Shown here: positions 5,262-53,719 of the stretch, piece after piece
Position numbering within the stretch: the stretch's first letter is position 1
Layout: the number at the start of each line of letters is the position of its first letter
NCBI GenBank assembly: GCA_022827625.1
Contig: JAJEIE010000033.1
Coordinates: 62,001-126,000 of the forward strand
Reading direction: 5' to 3'
Source of the DNA: Candidatus Poribacteria bacterium
GTDB lineage: Bacteria; Poribacteria; WGA-4E; WGA-3G
Length of the DNA stretch: 64,000 nucleotides
Notes under the pieces: generated by a model
Seen by the model: only the letters and a program-made list of their open reading frames with translations
Told to the model about the DNA's origin: nothing
Databases searched by the model: none
Position numbers and translations under genes: made by a program

Positions 5262-5704
5262 CATACGCCTGTAGGGTCATTTAGTTTCCCAATAATTTAC
5301 ATCCGGATGCCCGGATTTAGTCTGGGAATAGACTAAATCCATTCCTTGTATTACATTCTTGTTGGGGACAGTGTGCTATCCCGAATAAATTCGGGCTTCC
5401 GGAAACAGGAACCCTTTATATAGGTAAACTTATCTCTTAAAACTAAACAGCCCTGCATGCCCTCGTAGGAGGGATTTCCAAATCCCGACTCTTAACTTAT
5501 AACTTATAACTTATAACCTTAAACTAATTTGCTTTTAAAACCGAAATATTGTATAATTCGTATATCGAATTATAATGAATTCCATAATTAATTGGACACT
5601 TCCATTGTACCGCAAACTGTTAGTTTGCGTGTCTTCCAACCCTATACACAAACTAACAGTTTGTGCTACAAGTGTTCACATATTTTTGGACTTTACTATA
5701 AAGC
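5262..5704. repeat. Gene-free spacer filled with dispersed palindromes
   Basis: No coding sequence is seen. It holds an 11-bp perfect inverted repeat at 5313-5323/5330-5340 (GGATTTAGTCT and its complement), a short palindrome at 5380-5395 (CCCGAATAAATTCGGG), a REP-like element at 5465-5489 (starts GTAGGAGGG, ends CCCGAC), a heptameric run (TAACTTA units) at 5491-5520, and two oppositely oriented copies of the CAAACTGTTAGTTTG palindrome at 5606-5633 and 5646-5670. The first inverted repeat may help end rpoD transcription but has no following T-run. Confidence 0.75.
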
Positions 5705-30258: not shown

Positions 30259-30286
30259 TGTAGCGCAAACTGTTAGTTTGCGTGCC
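30259..30286 (+). repeat. CAAACTGTTAGTTTG palindrome
   Basis: TGTAGCGCAAACTGTTAG continuing TTTGCGTGCC, the same family as 5606, 5646, 8741, 8780, 50003 and 53835. It is 8 bases after the aminotransferase stop. Confidence 0.75.
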
Positions 30287-30313: not shown

Positions 30314-30520
30314 ATGGACATCTCCCTTGAAAACGAAACCCTAAATATCTACAGAAAAGAAATTGAAGCACTTATCCAGCGTGATGAAAAGTATAGAGAC
30401 TTAGGTCCTGATGCGCTTGAGGCAATTGTCAGCGCATTTGAATTTACTTTGACAAATGGACGCGAGAAGGTCCGCGCCCAAATGCTTTACGACCTCATTC
30501 ATGAGAAGAGGGACCTCTGA
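30314..30520 (+). CDS. Small acidic/helical protein coupled to a Rad50-like ATPase
   Basis: A 68-residue helical protein (MDISLENETLNIYRKEIE, then RDEKYRDLGPDALEAIV and a C-terminal ALEAIVSAFEFTLT-type helix). No family is recognised. ATG 30314 is chosen because the longer upstream frame enters a dispersed repeat. The stop codon is one base away from the ATG of the following ATPase, so the two are almost surely translated together and the protein is probably its partner or regulator. Function unknown. Confidence 0.6.
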   Translation: MDISLENETLNIYRKEIEALIQRDEKYRDLGPDALEAIVSAFEFTLTNGREKVRAQMLYDLIHEKRDL

Positions 30521-30521
30521 T

Positions 30522-32399
30522 ATGCGCTTAGAGCGGATTCGCCTTAAAACTTTCGGCTGCTTCCAACAGCAAGATTTTGAACTTCATAACGGTATTAATC
30601 TCATCTTCGGTCCCAACTTCAGTGGGAAAAGCACGCTCGTTAACGCCATCTTTTTTACGTTAACCGGCAAACCGATTGTCCCGCGCGTGGATAGCTCAGC
30701 CATAAAGAACGCGAAAGCCTATAGCGGCACAGCCGGACTCCAATTCGTCGCCGAGGGTGAACGCTACCAACTCTACCGGGCAACTGGAAAACGCATCCAA
30801 CTCCGTGCTGAGAAGGCAGACGGATGGCATGTCCTTTTCGATGATAAACGTATCAAAGCAACTGAAACAATGCTGCAAGAACGGTTTGGGATTAGGCACG
30901 AGCAGCTCGCGCTCACCACCTTTCTCCGCGAAGGCGAAATCTTTGAATTCCTCGCACGCCAGTCCACCACTCGACGCGACATCCTTCATACGCTCCTCGG
31001 TATTGATAGGTTAATAGAAGTACGGGAACGATTCATTGATACCCGTCGCATCGCTAAACGTGAACAAGGACGGATCCGTGCGCATCAAAACAGTCTCCGC
31101 TTCAACGCACGGAACGACCATAAAACCGAGATCGCACGCATCGAAGAAAAACTAAAAGGCTTGGAAGCGGCTTACGGTGCTGATACAGGGGATGCCGAGC
31201 TCATTGCTGAATGGACACAACACCAGAACCGTTTAAACACTCAGCTTGAGGCGCTGACACACCAGCGAAATGAAGCCTTAAGTGGTTTCAGTGATGTGCA
31301 GCACCTTCAGAAGATGAAAACTACAATTGAGACGGCTATTCAAAAAGCCACCGGATTAGAAGAAAAACGGGAGAAACTTATACAACAGATCGGGCGATTT
31401 GAATCCCAAATTACAGCCTTGACCAACGTTTGTAGCACCCTAAAAGCCCTCGTTGAAGGCGAAGATCAACACTGTCCAACGTGTTACCAAGAGGTCGAAC
31501 GGGAGGTCATCCAACGGATTATTGACGAGAAGACGCAAGAAAGATCAAAACGCTGCATTGAACTTGAAGCGCACAAACAGTCATTGGAAACGGAAACTGA
31601 GAATTTGAAAAGTAGACATGAACTCGAACAACGTCTTGAGACGTTGCAGGCTCGTGTGATGCAATTTCAACGGTGTGAGGAAGAAATTAAAGCCGTTCAG
31701 AGCGAACTCGATACCCTCACAGCACGGTTGAATCAAAGAGGTATCCAACACAGTGAACCCCAACCTGCTGAAACCGTTACAACCCTCGACAAATCCAAAT
31801 TGAAGGCGCAGATTGATCACGAGCGGAGACAACTTGACAAACTCAAGCGGGAAGAGGCTGTCCGCTTAGATAGACTTGCTTCCCTGCAACGCGTCAACAG
31901 AGACGCATCACATATTGAAAAAACACTCCTGAGCTTAGAACTCGCTTGTGCCGGCATTGACAAAACCATCGCCACCCTCCAGAAACAGATTCTCAAGCCT
32001 GCTGAGGAAGAACTCCATCTTTGGCTTGGAAAAATGGATCTCTTTTCTACTTCTCGCGGGAGCGGGGGCGAAACCCGCGTAGACCTACAACGTCAACACC
32101 TCCTCCCTTCGCTTACGATAGACGGCGTTGATCGGAGTTTGATGCTACTCAGCGGTAGCGAGAAGATGTTCCTCTATCTCTGTTTCAAAGTCGCCCTCGC
32201 CAATGTATTAGGTAATCCCGGTTTCTTCGTATTTGATGACCCAACGCTTCATCTGGATAGTGAACGCAAGGCATTGATGGTCGATTTTATCCACCAACTC
32301 GCCGAAGAGCATCAGGTCATTGTGACGAGCTATGATGAAGACGTGCGGGCGGGATTAGAAGGGGCGCATCTCATTGAAATGACAAGGGAAATCCCTTAA
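30522..32399 (+). CDS. Short Rad50/SbcC-like AAA ATPase with zinc hook
   Basis: A 625-residue SMC-superfamily ATPase; typical SbcC/Rad50 proteins are 850-1300 residues. Seen in order: RIRLKTFGCFQQQDFE, Walker A FGPNFSGKST (28-37), Q-loop region LTTFLREGEIF, a coiled coil (about 185-310), a CPTC zinc-hook motif (near 317), a second coiled coil (to about 490), the ABC signature LLSGSEKMFLYL (near 542), Walker B FFVFDDPTLHLD (near 567) and a final VTSYDEDV. The single CxxC suggests hook-mediated dimerisation. No SbcD/Mre11 nuclease is adjacent; instead a 68-residue protein precedes it. It could act in DNA repair or defence. The following gene is on the opposite strand and overlaps at the 3' end. 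Confidence 0.85.
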   Translation: MRLERIRLKTFGCFQQQDFELHNGINLIFGPNFSGKSTLVNAIFFTLTGKPIVPRVDSSAIKNAKAYSGTAGLQFVAEGERYQLYRATGKRIQLRAEKADGWHVLFDDKRIKATETMLQERFGIRHEQLALTTFLREGEIFEFLARQSTTRRDILHTLLGIDRLIEVRERFIDTRRIAKREQGRIRAHQNSLRFNARNDHKTEIARIEEKLKGLEAAYGADTGDAELIAEWTQHQNRLNTQLEALTHQRNEALSGFSDVQHLQKMKTTIETAIQKATGLEEKREKLIQQIGRFESQITALTNVCSTLKALVEGEDQHCPTCYQEVEREVIQRIIDEKTQERSKRCIELEAHKQSLETETENLKSRHELEQRLETLQARVMQFQRCEEEIKAVQSELDTLTARLNQRGIQHSEPQPAETVTTLDKSKLKAQIDHERRQLDKLKREEAVRLDRLASLQRVNRDASHIEKTLLSLELACAGIDKTIATLQKQILKPAEEELHLWLGKMDLFSTSRGSGGETRVDLQRQHLLPSLTIDGVDRSLMLLSGSEKMFLYLCFKVALANVLGNPGFFVFDDPTLHLDSERKALMVDFIHQLAEEHQVIVTSYDEDVRAGLEGAHLIEMTREIP

Positions 32400-37139: not shown

Positions 37140-40100
37140 GTGATAGAATTTTTACGTCAAACAGAAAATTACCAAACACTCGTATCGCGCCTCAAGGATG
37201 GCAAAAAACTGCCATGGCTTAGAGGATTGGTGAACGCATCTACGGCTTATCTTTTAACAGCACTGATTGATGATTTTCCGAAAAGATCCTTCCTGATTGT
37301 GCTACCTTCGCAACGCGAAGCCGAACAGATACTTGAGGAAATCTGTACCTATCGTGCCTATCCGACGTTAGAGAGTTCGCCGACACCCGACGCTTATCCT
37401 GAACTAAATCTTTTTCCCAGTTGGCATCGGAAATTCGTTGAAGGTATCGCGCCACCCAAAAACATTATCGCCGACCGGATGCGATGTTTGGATCGCTTGC
37501 TACATGGAGAACGGAACGTCGTTGTCACGACAAGTCAGGCACTGCTTTACAAACTCCCCTCGCGAGCGTGTTTGGCTGCTACCTGTCGCGTCGTCAATCT
37601 CGGCGACGAAATTGATCCAGACGACATCGCTGTCATGCTCATGAGCGGTGGATACCAGAACGTTGAGCTCGTAGAAGTCAAAGGCGAATTTGCCCGTAGA
37701 GGCGATATCTTTGATGTCTTTCCACTTACGGCTGATACCCCTGTACGCCTTGAATTCTTTGGAGATGAAGTGGAGGCTATCCGCGCTTTCGATCCCATAT
37801 CGCAACGTTCAACTGAACCCCTCGAATCTGTCACACTCACGCCGCTCCGCGAAATCTTTGCTGCTGACCCGTCAATAGATTATTGGCAGACACAAACGGA
37901 TGCCCTCATTCAGGAACACGCGACACCGCAGATTATAAATGCTATCAGAGAGATAACAAGAAACCTAACAGAAAGCGAGTCATCTCCGTATGGACTCGCC
38001 GACTGCACACTCAATAATGGACTTGACGCATTTCTGCCAATGCTCACACCCGAGGTTGAACTCCTCACAGATTACCTATCCGACGATACAATTGTCTGTC
38101 TGATTGAACCGCAATGGCAGAAGCGAGAGGCAGCGCGCCTGCACGAACGGCTGCAGGAAACCTACCAACAAAAGCTTGATGAATCTCATTTTGTTGTGCC
38201 ACCAGATAAACTCTTAGTTCCCTTTGAAACCCTCACGACACAGATAGCGCAGTATCCGGTTGTCTCTTCGTCTTTAGCACCGCCACGTAAAGTTTCAGAC
38301 AACAAATTGGCACCGATGCCTTTTGGAATGGAATCGCTCGCTTTACCATCAGGAAACTATCAAACGGTTATCAATCAGATTAAAACCTGGGCACAGCAAG
38401 GGAAACGGGTTCATCTGTTCTGTGAAACACCTCAGCAGTCCAAACGGGTATCGGAAATCTTAGCCGAACGCGACTTATTACCACCCGATATAGACATCAG
38501 CGTTGGGGCAATCAGTCAAGGTTTTCTCAGCGAACCGCTGAATCTTGTTGTTATCTCCGAAGATGAACTTTTCGGAAATCGACACCATCGTCCAATCCGC
38601 CGTCGTCCCCCTACAGATGGGACTCCTATTCTCAGTCTCATTGATCTCAAAGTTGGAGACTATGTGGTTCACGTCTCTCACGGTATCGCCGTCTATGACG
38701 GTATACGTCGATTGGATATTGATGGCAAGTCCCAAGATTTTCTGGTCCTCAAATACAGCGATGAGAACACGCTCTATGTGCCGACTTATCAGGTCGATCT
38801 CGTGCAAAAATACATCGGTAGTAAGGATGAGACCTATAAACCGCGGCTTGACCGTCTTGGGGGTCCTGCTTGGCACCGTCGAAAAGAGCGCGTCAGGGCA
38901 TCCATACAAGAGATGGCAGATGAACTCCTGAACTTATACGCGCTCCGGCAAGCCCAGAAGGGTTATAGTTTTCCAGCGGAAGTCCCTTGGCAGACCGAAT
39001 TTGAAGCCCTTTTCCCGTATCAAGAAACCAACGACCAACTCCAAGCCATTGAGGACGTTAAAGCCGACATGGAAAATGAACGCCCGATGGATCGACTCGT
39101 CTGTGGTGATGTCGGATACGGCAAAACAGAGGTAGCACTCCGCGCCGCCTTCAAAGCCGTTATGTCAGAAAAGCAGGTCGCAATTCTCGTCCCAACGACG
39201 ATCCTCGCGCTTCAGCACCACGACACCTTCGAAAAACGTTTTCAGGATTTCCCGGTTCATGTCGAAATGCTAAACCGTTTTCGGACACCAAAAGAGATAA
39301 AGCGGATTAAGGAAGGATTGGCGAAAGGGACGATTGATGTTGTGATCGGGACACATAGCTTGCTTTCCAAAACGGTGACATTTGCCAATCTCGGACTCCT
39401 CATTGTTGACGAGGAACACCGATTCGGTGTTAGACACAAGGAAAAGATTAAACAGTTTAAAGAGACGATTGATGTGCTGACATTGACTGCAACCCCAATC
39501 CCCCGGACACTCCACATGTCGCTCGTCGGTATTCGAGATTTCAGCGTTATTAATACGCCTCCCGCAGATCGATTGCCGATTCAGACGCACGTTATGCCTT
39601 ACGACTCCGAGGTCATTCGTGGCGCAATCTCTGCAGAATTGCGTCGCGGCGGTCAAGTATTTTTTGTCCACAATCGCGTTCAAGATATTCAGAGCATCGC
39701 CTTAACTGTCCAACAACTGGTTCCTGAGGCACGGGTCGCTGTTGCACATGGACAGATGCCCGAGCGTGAATTGGAGAGCGTGATGCTTGAGTTTGTCCGC
39801 CATAAGCACGATATCCTCGTCTGTACCATGATTATTGAGTCCGGACTCGATATACCGAATGTAAATACGATCTTGATTAATCGAGCGGATGCACTCGGGT
39901 TGGCGCAACTCTATCAGTTACGCGGACGGGTCGGTAGGGCGACCGCACAGGCTTACGGGTATCTCTTCTATCCACAGAACCACGCAATTACCGAAGGTGC
40001 ACAGAAACGACTTCGGGTCATCGAAGAATTCACCGACCTCGGTTCGGGCTTCAAAATAGCACTCCGAGATCTCGAAATTCGCGGTACAGGGAATATCCTC

Positions 40101-40649
40101 GGTGCCGAGCAACACGGACATATCGTTACCGTTGGTTATGAACTCTACTGTAAGCTGCTTGAAGAAGCAGTGATGGCACTAAAGGGAGAAAAGGTCGAAG
40201 CGTCTCTTGATACACGTATTAGTTTACCTGTTGAAGCCTATCTACCCGATGATTATGTCCCTGACAGTCGTCAAAAGGTCTCTGTCTACAAAAAAATTGC
40301 TGGATTGAAAGAGGATGTGGCTCTCAAAGAACTTCGCGAGGAACTACAGGACAGATATGGACCTATTCCGGAGCCAGTTGAGATGTTGCTCGAAATTGCG
40401 AATCTTAAGCAGCTCAGCAACCAATTGGGTATTAGTGCTATTGTTGCCGGAAAAGAACAGGTAAAGGTCACCTTCGACGAGCAGAATCCGAGAATTAATG
40501 TGAAGAAATTCATTGAAATAGTACACAAAAATAAGAACCTTCAGCTGCAACCACCGGCACAACTTAAAGTTCGCATGCCGGGCATGACTGGCGCGAATAT
40601 GTTAACCGAATTGCAGCAAACCCTGAAATTGTTTGTTGCGTCATCGTAA
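37140..40649 (+). CDS. mfd: Transcription-repair coupling factor Mfd
   Basis: Removes stalled RNA polymerase and recruits the UvrABC system. The 1169-residue protein matches the family length. It has the N-terminal UvrB-like domains (LPSQREAEQILEE, EFARRGDIFDVFP), the CarD/RNAP-interacting domain (KVGDYVVHVSHGIAVYDG near residue 500), the helicase core with Walker A VCGDVGYGKTEVALRAAF, DEEHRFGVRHKEKIK, TLTATPIPRTLHMSL, and the regulatory C terminus with RGTGNILGAEQHGHI. GTG 37140 is the likely start, but there is no strong Shine-Dalgarno sequence. The spacer ahead of it holds degenerate GCGATTAGCGG-type repeats. It heads a cluster of folding factors. Confidence 0.97.
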   Translation: MIEFLRQTENYQTLVSRLKDGKKLPWLRGLVNASTAYLLTALIDDFPKRSFLIVLPSQREAEQILEEICTYRAYPTLESSPTPDAYPELNLFPSWHRKFVEGIAPPKNIIADRMRCLDRLLHGERNVVVTTSQALLYKLPSRACLAATCRVVNLGDEIDPDDIAVMLMSGGYQNVELVEVKGEFARRGDIFDVFPLTADTPVRLEFFGDEVEAIRAFDPISQRSTEPLESVTLTPLREIFAADPSIDYWQTQTDALIQEHATPQIINAIREITRNLTESESSPYGLADCTLNNGLDAFLPMLTPEVELLTDYLSDDTIVCLIEPQWQKREAARLHERLQETYQQKLDESHFVVPPDKLLVPFETLTTQIAQYPVVSSSLAPPRKVSDNKLAPMPFGMESLALPSGNYQTVINQIKTWAQQGKRVHLFCETPQQSKRVSEILAERDLLPPDIDISVGAISQGFLSEPLNLVVISEDELFGNRHHRPIRRRPPTDGTPILSLIDLKVGDYVVHVSHGIAVYDGIRRLDIDGKSQDFLVLKYSDENTLYVPTYQVDLVQKYIGSKDETYKPRLDRLGGPAWHRRKERVRASIQEMADELLNLYALRQAQKGYSFPAEVPWQTEFEALFPYQETNDQLQAIEDVKADMENERPMDRLVCGDVGYGKTEVALRAAFKAVMSEKQVAILVPTTILALQHHDTFEKRFQDFPVHVEMLNRFRTPKEIKRIKEGLAKGTIDVVIGTHSLLSKTVTFANLGLLIVDEEHRFGVRHKEKIKQFKETIDVLTLTATPIPRTLHMSLVGIRDFSVINTPPADRLPIQTHVMPYDSEVIRGAISAELRRGGQVFFVHNRVQDIQSIALTVQQLVPEARVAVAHGQMPERELESVMLEFVRHKHDILVCTMIIESGLDIPNVNTILINRADALGLAQLYQLRGRVGRATAQAYGYLFYPQNHAITEGAQKRLRVIEEFTDLGSGFKIALRDLEIRGTGNILGAEQHGHIVTVGYELYCKLLEEAVMALKGEKVEASLDTRISLPVEAYLPDDYVPDSRQKVSVYKKIAGLKEDVALKELREELQDRYGPIPEPVEMLLEIANLKQLSNQLGISAIVAGKEQVKVTFDEQNPRINVKKFIEIVHKNKNLQLQPPAQLKVRMPGMTGANMLTELQQTLKLFVASS

Positions 40650-48540: not shown

Positions 48541-48900
48541 ATGTTGAATGGAGCCATGAGAGATGTGAAATGGGTTGGAAATTCCCATGAGCAAGTCCGG
48601 AGTTTCCCTAAACCCGCCAGAAAAATAGTAGGTGATGCTCTACAATTCGCTCAACTCGGAAAAAAGCATCAAAAGGCAAAACCATTGCGTGGCATTGGTT
48701 CGGGCGTGTTTGAGATCGCCGCCCGTTTCGACACGAACACCTATCGTGCTGTCTATACGGTCAAATTGGGTGCGAATATCTATGTCCTGCATGCATTCCA
48801 GAAGAAATCTATTCGTGGTATCAGCACACCCAAAAGGGAAATTGACTTGATTAAACAACGCTTGAGAATAGCACAAGAAATGGAGGCAGAAAATGGGTGA
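48541..48900 (+). CDS. HigB/Gp49-family toxin, TA module 1
   Basis: A 119-residue member of the phage-derived Gp49-like/HigB RelE-superfamily toxins, which cleave mRNA at the ribosome. The pattern KPLRGIGSGVFEIAARFD, TYRAVYTVKLG and IYVLHAFQKKS is typical. ATG 48541 or 48556 (with GGAG 5 bases upstream) may be the start. It overlaps the antitoxin gene by eight bases. About three quarters identical to the toxin at 53041, and preceded by the same hsdM-tail remnant and promoter. Confidence 0.88.
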   Translation: MLNGAMRDVKWVGNSHEQVRSFPKPARKIVGDALQFAQLGKKHQKAKPLRGIGSGVFEIAARFDTNTYRAVYTVKLGANIYVLHAFQKKSIRGISTPKREIDLIKQRLRIAQEMEAENG

Positions 48901-49222
48901 AGAAGTCAAAATTGAGGAGAGCTCTGGAAACGTGTTTCTGGATATCGGTTTCTCCGAAGAGGAAGCTGAATATGAACAGTTACGGTCATATCTTGCCTAT
49001 CATGTTTATAGCCTTTTTGAAGAACTAAAGTTGACCTCCGAGAAAGCGAAGATACGTTTTGGTATTGATTCAGATGATGTGTCTCGGATACAGGATGGAG
49101 ACTTTCATTTTTTTAGTGTGCCTCAACTCCTTATACTCTTGAAACGATTGAACCGCAATATTGAAATTCGTATCACACCTTCAGATGAAAAAATCGGGCA
49201 CCTACGAGTCGTTACCACTTGA
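48893..49222 (+). CDS. XRE-type HTH antitoxin, TA module 1
   Basis: A 109-residue antitoxin of the HigA/HTH_37 type. After a conserved start (VKIEESSGNVFLDIGFS) come the helices of an XRE fold (ELKLTSEKAKIRFGIDSDDVSRIQDG) and a C-terminal RITPSDEKIGHLRVV. It overlaps the toxin gene by eight bases in toxin-first order, typical of HigBA. It would neutralise the toxin and autoregulate the operon. The SDR gene begins 12 bases later, an arrangement that is probably fortuitous. Confidence 0.88.
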   Translation: MGEEVKIEESSGNVFLDIGFSEEEAEYEQLRSYLAYHVYSLFEELKLTSEKAKIRFGIDSDDVSRIQDGDFHFFSVPQLLILLKRLNRNIEIRITPSDEKIGHLRVVTT

Positions 49223-53040: not shown

Positions 53041-53400
53041 ATGTTGAATGAAGTTATGAGAGATGTGAAATGGGTTGGAGATTCCCGCGAGCAGGTCCGG
53101 AGTTTCCCTAAGCCCGCAAAAAAAATAGTAGGGCAGGCGTTAAATGCTGCTCAATCTGGCCGTAAACACATTAACGCCAAACCATTACGAGGAGTGGGCT
53201 CCGGTGTCTTAGAGGTCGCTGCGCGTTACGATACAAATACATATCGCGCTGTTTATACTGTCAAACTGGGTGAGAACATCTATGTGCTTCATGCATTTCA
53301 AAAGAAATCCACTCGTGGTATCAGGACCTCCAAAAAGGAAATTAACTTGATTAAACAACGTTTGAAAATGGCGAGAGAAATGGAGAGAAAAAATGAGTAA
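53041..53400 (+). CDS. HigB/Gp49-family toxin, TA module 2
   Basis: A 119-residue toxin of the same RelE-superfamily type as 48541, about 75% identical, with KPLRGVGSGVLEVAARYD, YTVKLGENIYVLHAFQKKS and KKEINLIKQRLK. It overlaps the antitoxin by eight bases. The two copies having diverged by about a quarter of residues suggests an old duplication or independent acquisition of related modules. No damage is seen. Confidence 0.88.
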   Translation: MLNEVMRDVKWVGDSREQVRSFPKPAKKIVGQALNAAQSGRKHINAKPLRGVGSGVLEVAARYDTNTYRAVYTVKLGENIYVLHAFQKKSTRGIRTSKKEINLIKQRLKMAREMERKNE

Positions 53401-53719
53401 GGAAATCAAAATTGTAGAGAGCTCTGGAAATGTATTTTTAGACATCGGTTTCTCGAAAGAGGAAGCAGAACGTGAACAGTTACGAGTGGATCTCGTGATT
53501 AAAATCTGTCAACTTTTTGAGGAACTTGAGCTGACTCCAGCAAAGGCATCGGTGCATTTTGGACTTGATCCATCCGACGTGTCTCGAATACAGAATGGGG
53601 ATTTTGATTTCAACATCGACACACTATTTACCATTCTAAGTCAACTGAATCGAAATGTCGAAGTTCGTATCACACCTTCAAAGGAAAAAGCTGGGCACTT
53701 ACGAGTCGTTGCTACTTAA
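53393..53719 (+). CDS. XRE-type HTH antitoxin, TA module 2
   Basis: A 108-residue antitoxin paralogous to the one at 48893: IKIVESSGNVFLDIGFSKEEAE, then an XRE fold (LTPAKASVHFGLDPSDVSRIQNG) and the same end (RITPSKEKAGHLRVVAT). Genes overlap in toxin-first order. The stretch after it to 53872 contains TTAGTTTG palindrome words (53835-53863) and no gene. Confidence 0.88.
   Translation: MSKEIKIVESSGNVFLDIGFSKEEAEREQLRVDLVIKICQLFEELELTPAKASVHFGLDPSDVSRIQNGDFDFNIDTLFTILSQLNRNVEVRITPSKEKAGHLRVVAT

Follow-up and report, generated by a model that had tools for sequence, protein, structure and literature searches.

A short zinc-hook Rad50-like ATPase encoded with a 68-residue protein in Poribacteria: a possible undescribed small complex for chromosome maintenance rather than defence

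Short Rad50-like ATPases that carry a zinc hook have been discussed in two settings, as organisers in archaea, the Archaea-specific SMC-related proteins or ASRPs (PMC9389158), and as sensors in the Lamassu defence systems (PMC10586767). Passages of the former paper describe ASRPs as archaea-specific, mentioning three doubtful bacterial contigs and no consensus among flanking genes, and report that the vast majority of these proteins are hooked (PMC9389158). According to sections of the latter, the Lamassu ATPase LmuB is about 650 aa long, often hooked, accompanied by a small LmuC, and generally has Gln in place of Glu at Walker B, and engineered changes equivalent to this substitution drastically slow ABC ATPases (PMC10586767). 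In haloarchaea, as presented in part of PMC10869688, 42 of the 50 SMC-like genes in 24 genomes adjoin an RdfA gene, and both Haloferax genes, rdfA and the SMC-like gene, are needed for rods. A literature search covering few subscription papers and no preprints returned no description of the gene pair reported here.

The pair lies on the forward strand of the window, by which we mean the whole 64,000-nucleotide stretch of DNA analysed, from a Candidatus Poribacteria genome (5.0 Mb in 41 contigs, 95.14% complete). A small gene at 30314..30520 (+), ending with TGA at 30518-30520, encodes a partner protein of 68 aa, and is followed at 30522..32399 (+) by a gene that begins with ATG at 30522 and encodes a short Rad50/SMC-like ATPase of 625 aa with a zinc hook. 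A preliminary description of the locus had correctly placed the pair at 30314-32399, and its portrayal of a short Rad50-like ATPase of ~625 residues with a CPTC hook was borne out by the translation and by 43 of 43 aligned rows. Its further claim of a tiny coupled partner, with no Mre11 or SbcD alongside, likewise held: the small protein is real, obligate and non-nuclease, occurring in the same 67 genomes as the ATPase with a dN/dS of 0.10.

A single base (T, 30521) separates the small-protein stop from the ATPase start; the mechanically called ATPase ORF opens further upstream, at 30456 (647 aa), and the conserved protein begins at 30522. Among 67 distinct pairs, the gap from stop to start measures 1 nt in 51 cases, 2 nt in seven, 3 nt in eight and 24 nt in a single one, the ATPase start codon is ATG in 64 and GTG in 3, and the small protein is 68 aa long in 56, 69 in 8, 66 in 2 and 76 in 1. 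A possible, purine-rich ribosome site for the ATPase is located at 30505..30513 (+), within the 3' end of the small gene, and a crude test for such a site was positive in 32 of the 67 pairs against a background of 12.5%. A promoter scan found no signal above chance.

Several other features of the window were recorded in passing. A palindromic 20-mer (GCGCAAACTGTTAGTTTGCG) is present at 30263-30282, just upstream of the small gene, and also at 5610, 5647, 8786, 50007 and 53839; with up to 3 mismatches allowed there are 6 copies versus 0 in shuffles, which suggests a hairpin repeat scattered among intergenic regions. Two Gp49-like (DUF891) genes, each followed by an overlapping HTH_37 gene, are found at 48541-49222 and 53041-53719, ~4.5 kb apart, in a toxin-antitoxin-type arrangement. 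The transcription-repair coupling factor Mfd (TRCF, CarD and helicase domains) is encoded at 37140-40649.

The ATPase matches the Pfam family SMC_N (71.7 bits, cut-off 40), and its motifs were followed through alignment A2, which holds 43 of the 67 distinct pairs (the small-protein alignment, A1, holds 44). Walker A (GPNFSGKST, residues 30-38; 30609..30635, +), the zinc-hook motif CPTC (residues 318-321; 31473..31484, +) and the ABC signature (LSGSEK, residues 543-548; 32148..32165, +) are invariant in all 43 rows. The hook, a trait of SbcCD, makes hook-mediated dimerisation a putative property of the ATPase, and it occupies the place of an SMC hinge domain, for which no family appeared among 16 Pfam matches up to E 1. 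The coiled arms are ~155-180 residues each, as judged from motif positions.

The head of such ATPases usually carries a Gln in the Q-loop, a Glu in Walker B and a switch His, and all three are visible in the aligned Rad50 and SbcC rows. In the pair ATPase, the segment that we take to be the Q-loop (FLREGEIFE, residues 134-142; 30921..30947, +) has Glu137, invariant in 43/43 rows, aligned with the Rad50/SbcC Gln. Walker B and the D-loop (FFVFDDPTLHLD, residues 568-579; 32223..32258, +) have Asp573 in place of the catalytic Glu, with D572, D573 and D579 invariant in 43/43 rows, and what is presumably the H-loop (residues 600-608; 32319..32345, +) has Tyr604 (33 rows) or Asn (10 rows) instead of the switch His. 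The full head motifs credited to the ATPase in the preliminary description thus stand for Walker A, the signature and the hook, but not for the Walker-B Asp, the Q-loop Glu and the switch Tyr or Asn. Because LmuB-type changes at Walker B slow ABC ATPases, and because haloarchaeal Sph proteins are also altered there, with DS or DG at the position of the Glu, slow or partner-controlled hydrolysis is likely by analogy; alternatively, the substitutions could signal a different chemistry. AlphaFold2 produced a poor model for the ATPase (mean pLDDT 71.0, pTM 0.38; residues 1-72 below 50), so its PDB matches, to Rad50, SMC and LmuB chains, are only general.

The small protein is predicted to form three helices (residues 3-23, 32-48 and 55-66; AlphaFold2 mean pLDDT 86.2, pTM 0.70). 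It has no significant match to any Pfam, PHROG, PADLOC or PDB family, with 0 PADLOC families at E <= 1, a level below which a diverged LmuC could still lie, and its model has no PDB match at E <= 0.001. VIA-align of the model gave only weak rows, the best being Zur (Z 4.2, 55 residues, rmsd 3.1), and the absence of a fold from the VIA-align list excludes nothing. As a candidate kleisin or KITE partner, the three-helix protein has no sequence match, and the structural search gave weak rows only. The possibility that the small ORF is spurious was rejected: the gene is under purifying selection, with a median dN/dS of 0.10 (345 unsaturated pairs among 1540 row pairs), its other two same-strand frames contain stops in 56/56 rows, and it is conserved in 67/84 genomes.

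The preliminary description had proposed a search for the pair in other genomes. Of the 84 genomes of the phylum, 67 contain the ATPase (E <= 1e-10), one copy each except for two copies broken in two pieces, the small-protein profile A1 also identifies 67/84 (E <= 0.01), and a row-by-row comparison of the tables showed that these are the same 67. In every one of them the small gene immediately precedes the ATPase gene, sharing its contig and strand, and the two matches are no more than 54 nt apart. Moreover, in 94 of 95 fetched loci, a set that includes duplicate genomes, a small ORF of at least 55 aa ends within ~40 nt of the ATPase start, the lone miss (L089) being cut by a contig edge. As a separate observation, the ATPase of one genome (G019, L113) is split into two frames, one of 408 aa and one of 214 aa, close to the end of a contig, which may reflect an assembly or sequencing error.

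By group, the pair is present in 38/38 genomes of the genus, in 56/58 of family f1, 2/2 of f2 and 9/9 of f3, or 67 of the 69 sampled genomes of these three families; the two f1 genomes that have no pair are 86% and 73% complete. It is absent from family f4 (0/3), from the other families of the class (0/10) and from elsewhere in the phylum (0/2), and since neither f4 nor any of the ten genomes of the other families has it, the pair is dispensable in related bacteria. Identity of the ATPase between genomes drops with kinship, and the relatives of the locus (49 distinct loci) all come from Candidatus or uncultured Poribacteria. The 204 genomes from outside the phylum, in a 288-genome set that includes the 84, held no full-length match to either protein; two partial ATPase matches fell within frames of 1061 and 975 aa, and a very diverged relative could escape this search given its loose first screening step. 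Searches of plasmid, phage and viral collections did not turn up the pair, and viral contigs contained no relative of either protein.

The genes around the pair vary between families. In f1 an aminotransferase gene, as in the window, is usually upstream, and a SixA-like phosphatase gene is downstream in many loci; a semialdehyde dehydrogenase gene is upstream in f3, Dus is downstream in f2, and RibD is nearby in G016. These flank calls come from a simple longest-ORF script that may miss short genes and that swapped the small ORF for an overlapping frame in several loci, which the small-ORF scan of the 95 loci did not. Given that the pair stays intact while its flanks change between families, it travels as a unit, and the identical set of 67 genomes, the constant adjacency despite changing flanks and the dN/dS of 0.10 together indicate an obligate single-copy core pair rather than a patchy defence island.

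Our preferred reading, to which we give a little under an even chance, is that the two genes, a core operon in one Poribacteria order, encode a small Rad50/SMC-like complex that lacks a nuclease and serves chromosomal upkeep rather than immunity. Upkeep is favoured because the pair is fixed, single-copy and vertically distributed, was not seen as such in phages, plasmids or viral contigs, and has no effector-type gene among the neighbours scanned. Two ATPases would join through a Cys4 zinc hook, and ATP binding would shut the two heads on DNA. Hydrolysis would be slow or partner-dependent, given the Walker-B Asp, the Q-loop Glu and the missing switch His, and could produce a long-lived DNA clamp. 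The three-helix protein may bind either to the head or to the coiled-coil base, setting the state of the clamp and taking the place held in other complexes by Mre11, a kleisin or LmuC, and the role of the whole would be to hold or sense DNA structures, in repair or in nucleoid organisation. Binding and function are deduced here from the anatomy, conservation, linkage and genome context of the pair. Counting against this reading, the fold predicted for the small protein found no match among known subunits, and the pair is dispensable in related bacteria.

A rival account, which we regard as unlikely, derives the pair from Lamassu: an LmuB-type ATPase would have lost LmuA and kept a shrunken LmuC-like protein, becoming a domesticated sensor that serves housekeeping or an unlinked effector. 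The best whole-length PADLOC match of the ATPase is in fact the LmuB model (117.8 bits; the PADLOC output states no cut-off), the length, frequent hook, usual Walker-B substitution and small LmuC described for LmuB (PMC10586767) are all reminiscent of the pair, and an LmuB-like protein from another phylum also has a DDP Walker B. However, full-length pair ATPases reach only 109-140 bits on this model, compared to 435 and 469 for clear LmuBs and 295 for a partial one, and the ATPase was rejected as an LmuB on this basis. Its Walker B has Asp and not the usual Gln, and the small protein has no PADLOC match. Nor was an LmuA-type effector seen beside the ATPase: the neighbours scanned, a subset of genes and loci that in the window comprised the 68-aa protein, the aminotransferase, a lectin-type protein and others, gave no effector-type Pfam or PADLOC match, and a defence-model scan of ten neighbours, 6 from the window and 4 from loci of other families, gave a single match, to an O-methyltransferase.

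The tree of ATPase heads supports no particular placement. Its 44 rows (36 comparison proteins and 11 pair ATPases, minus a partial LmuB, a RecN and a RecF dropped beforehand) recover the pair ATPases as their own clade (100/100), with bootstrap values of 14-45 for its placement and no supported neighbour; the comparison row x_G259b is shortened at its start. Finally, the distribution is core and not patchy. The defence option raised in the preliminary description is not supported: the pair is single-copy and present in 67/69 f1-f3 genomes, its identity tracks kinship, and ten neighbours yielded nothing beyond the O-methyltransferase match.

Additional SMC-like ATPases of 620-670 aa were also noticed besides the pair in other Poribacteria genomes, at L193 (G032), L194 (G033), L195 (G064), L196 (G069), L197 (G083), L198 (G028) and L206 (G040). 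The one in G032 is LmuB-like with a CPLC motif, and two other groups are hookless, with an MDT or LDT Walker B. The G032 protein, from a genome that has no pair, scores 117.2 bits on the LmuB model and was rejected as a pair ATPase, being LmuB-like by sequence and tree check.

It is similarly improbable, in our judgement, that the pair is the bacterial counterpart of the archaeal ASRPs (coalescin ClsN, Sph), organising the nucleoid or cell shape, with the small gene in the role of RdfA. The best NCBIfam match of the window ATPase is the ASRP model NF045487 (99.4 bits, cut-off 300), and the match runs end to end, residues 11-606 against model positions 2-593 of 593. Across the 288 genomes, full-length pair ATPases score 92-151 bits (the top, 150.7, in f3), above every other bacterial protein found (<=78.5). 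The hook present in most ASRPs (PMC9389158) fits as well, as does the lack of the Walker-B Glu in Sph. Haloarchaeal plasmid loci offer a parallel arrangement: among 7 annotated loci, 4 (L179, L180, L212 and L213) have rdfA immediately upstream of the ASRP gene, while in the remaining ones it is convergent downstream (L216), 1.9 kb upstream (L214) or not seen (L215), an eighth locus (L211) being without annotation; and both genes are needed for Haloferax rods, as stated in part of PMC10869688.

Nevertheless, none of the 288 genomes reaches the curated cut-off of 300, which 2 of 14 control genomes pass, and the ATPase was rejected as an ASRP by that model. Rad50 models score nearly as high, the ASRP model and five Rad50 models matching all 43 members examined, and the head tree, whose ASRPs are haloarchaeal only, gives no supported grouping with them. 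By profile the ATPase falls among the archaeal ASRP/Sph proteins, Rad50 and LmuB, below every curated cut-off. The small protein, moreover, shows no detectable similarity to RdfA (hhalign probability 0.4% over 15 columns, against a shallow RdfA alignment of 5 rows), and homology between the two was rejected.

Less probable still is that the small ORF is a mere coupling leader, or a separate regulator, for example one that represses the operon, rather than part of an ATPase complex. In all but one of the 67 distinct pairs its stop precedes the ATPase start by 1-3 nt, as a leader's might, and the predicted compact three-helix fold would be compatible with DNA binding, Zur being the top VIA-align row, albeit a very weak one. 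A leader would not need the strong protein-level purifying selection seen here, which disfavours a leader alone, though a regulator would be compatible with it. In addition, between close relatives the small protein shows slightly higher identity than the ATPase, the order being reversed for the most distant rows, and no free-standing copy was found at E <= 0.001 in the 288 genomes, the one off-locus partial match having an E of 0.0014.

The preliminary description had also asked whether an sbcD gene exists elsewhere in the genome, holding that an Mre11/SbcD gene always found with the ATPase would make the small protein incidental. No such nuclease gene is beside the ATPase among the scanned neighbours. 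The genome of the window does encode a single SbcD over the cut-off (217.5 bits), on another contig, in an operon with, and overlapping, a canonical SbcC of 1211 aa that has its own CLVC motif; it also encodes SMC (1197 aa as called by script) and ScpA (112.7 bits, over the cut-off). SbcD is over the cut-off in 66/84 genomes, 61 of 67 that have the pair and 5 of 17 that do not. As six pair genomes have no SbcD over the cut-off (two of them, G014 and G016, are 95-96% complete) and five pairless ones have it, neither requires the other, and their frequent co-occurrence is what would be expected of a common gene. The presence of SbcD thus does not refute the preliminary description, and SbcD was rejected as the evident partner of the ATPase, having its own SbcC operon and a distribution not strictly shared with the pair. 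The ATPase was likewise rejected as an SbcC/Rad50 member, since TIGR00618 gives it 43.9 bits against a cut-off of 478.5 and the best Rad50 model 95.9 bits against 700. In the pairless family f4, SbcC is itself short (753-765 aa) and adjoins SbcD (L207 in G025, L208 in G026). That the ATPase is an extra SbcC/Rad50 borrowing SbcD in trans, with the small protein as adaptor, is very unlikely: its Rad50-like head and hook and the presence of SbcD in most pair genomes would allow this, but SbcD is beside its own SbcC here and, judging by coordinates, adjoins an SbcC-like frame in 19 or more other pair genomes, each gene set occurs without the other, and the SbcC model score is far below its cut-off.

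If the chromosome-maintenance reading is correct, a bacterial order has fixed such an ATPase among its core genes, along with a tiny obligate partner and beside canonical SbcCD and SMC, and short hooked Rad50-like machines can be housekeeping parts with neither a nuclease nor a known kleisin. The pair would also offer a minimal two-protein system for the effects of a small subunit on Rad50-type heads that do not have the usual catalytic residues. We suggest, more tentatively and with considerable doubt, that it adds a third, hitherto undescribed kind to the coiled-coil ABC machines that do housekeeping in bacteria, SMC-ScpA and SbcCD: a nuclease-free, hinge-free Rad50-like clamp with an unusually small accessory subunit, possibly a counterpart of the ASRPs.

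Set against the described systems, the pair shares with SbcCD and Mre11-Rad50, including phage gp46/gp47, a hooked coiled-coil ATPase, the N-terminal half of which resembles archaeal Rad50 models; in contrast, it has no adjoining nuclease gene, its ATPase is half as long as the SbcC of the same genome, and the Q-loop, Walker B and H-loop are altered. Lamassu likewise combines a small co-encoded protein with a short Rad50-like ATPase that is similar in length, often hooked and substituted at Walker B, whereas the pair has no LmuA-type effector among the scanned neighbours, Asp instead of Gln, a far lower model score than clear LmuBs and a fixed core distribution. With the ASRPs (ClsN/coalescin, Sph; NF045487) the pair ATPase has in common a length of ~600-670 aa, Walker A at the N end and Walker B at the C end, the usual Cys hook in the middle and, with Sph, the missing Walker-B Glu, and in haloarchaea too a separate gene, rdfA, is often directly upstream; the pair ATPase differs in being bacterial, in scoring below the curated cut-off (92-151 of 300 bits) and in having a canonical GK Walker A, which is degenerate in several Sph proteins. 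The RdfA-Sph pair of haloarchaea matches it in gene order, with a partner that is not a nuclease encoded immediately upstream of a short SMC-like protein that has a hook, but RdfA is ~200 aa long with conserved Cys residues and has no detectable homology to the 68-aa protein.
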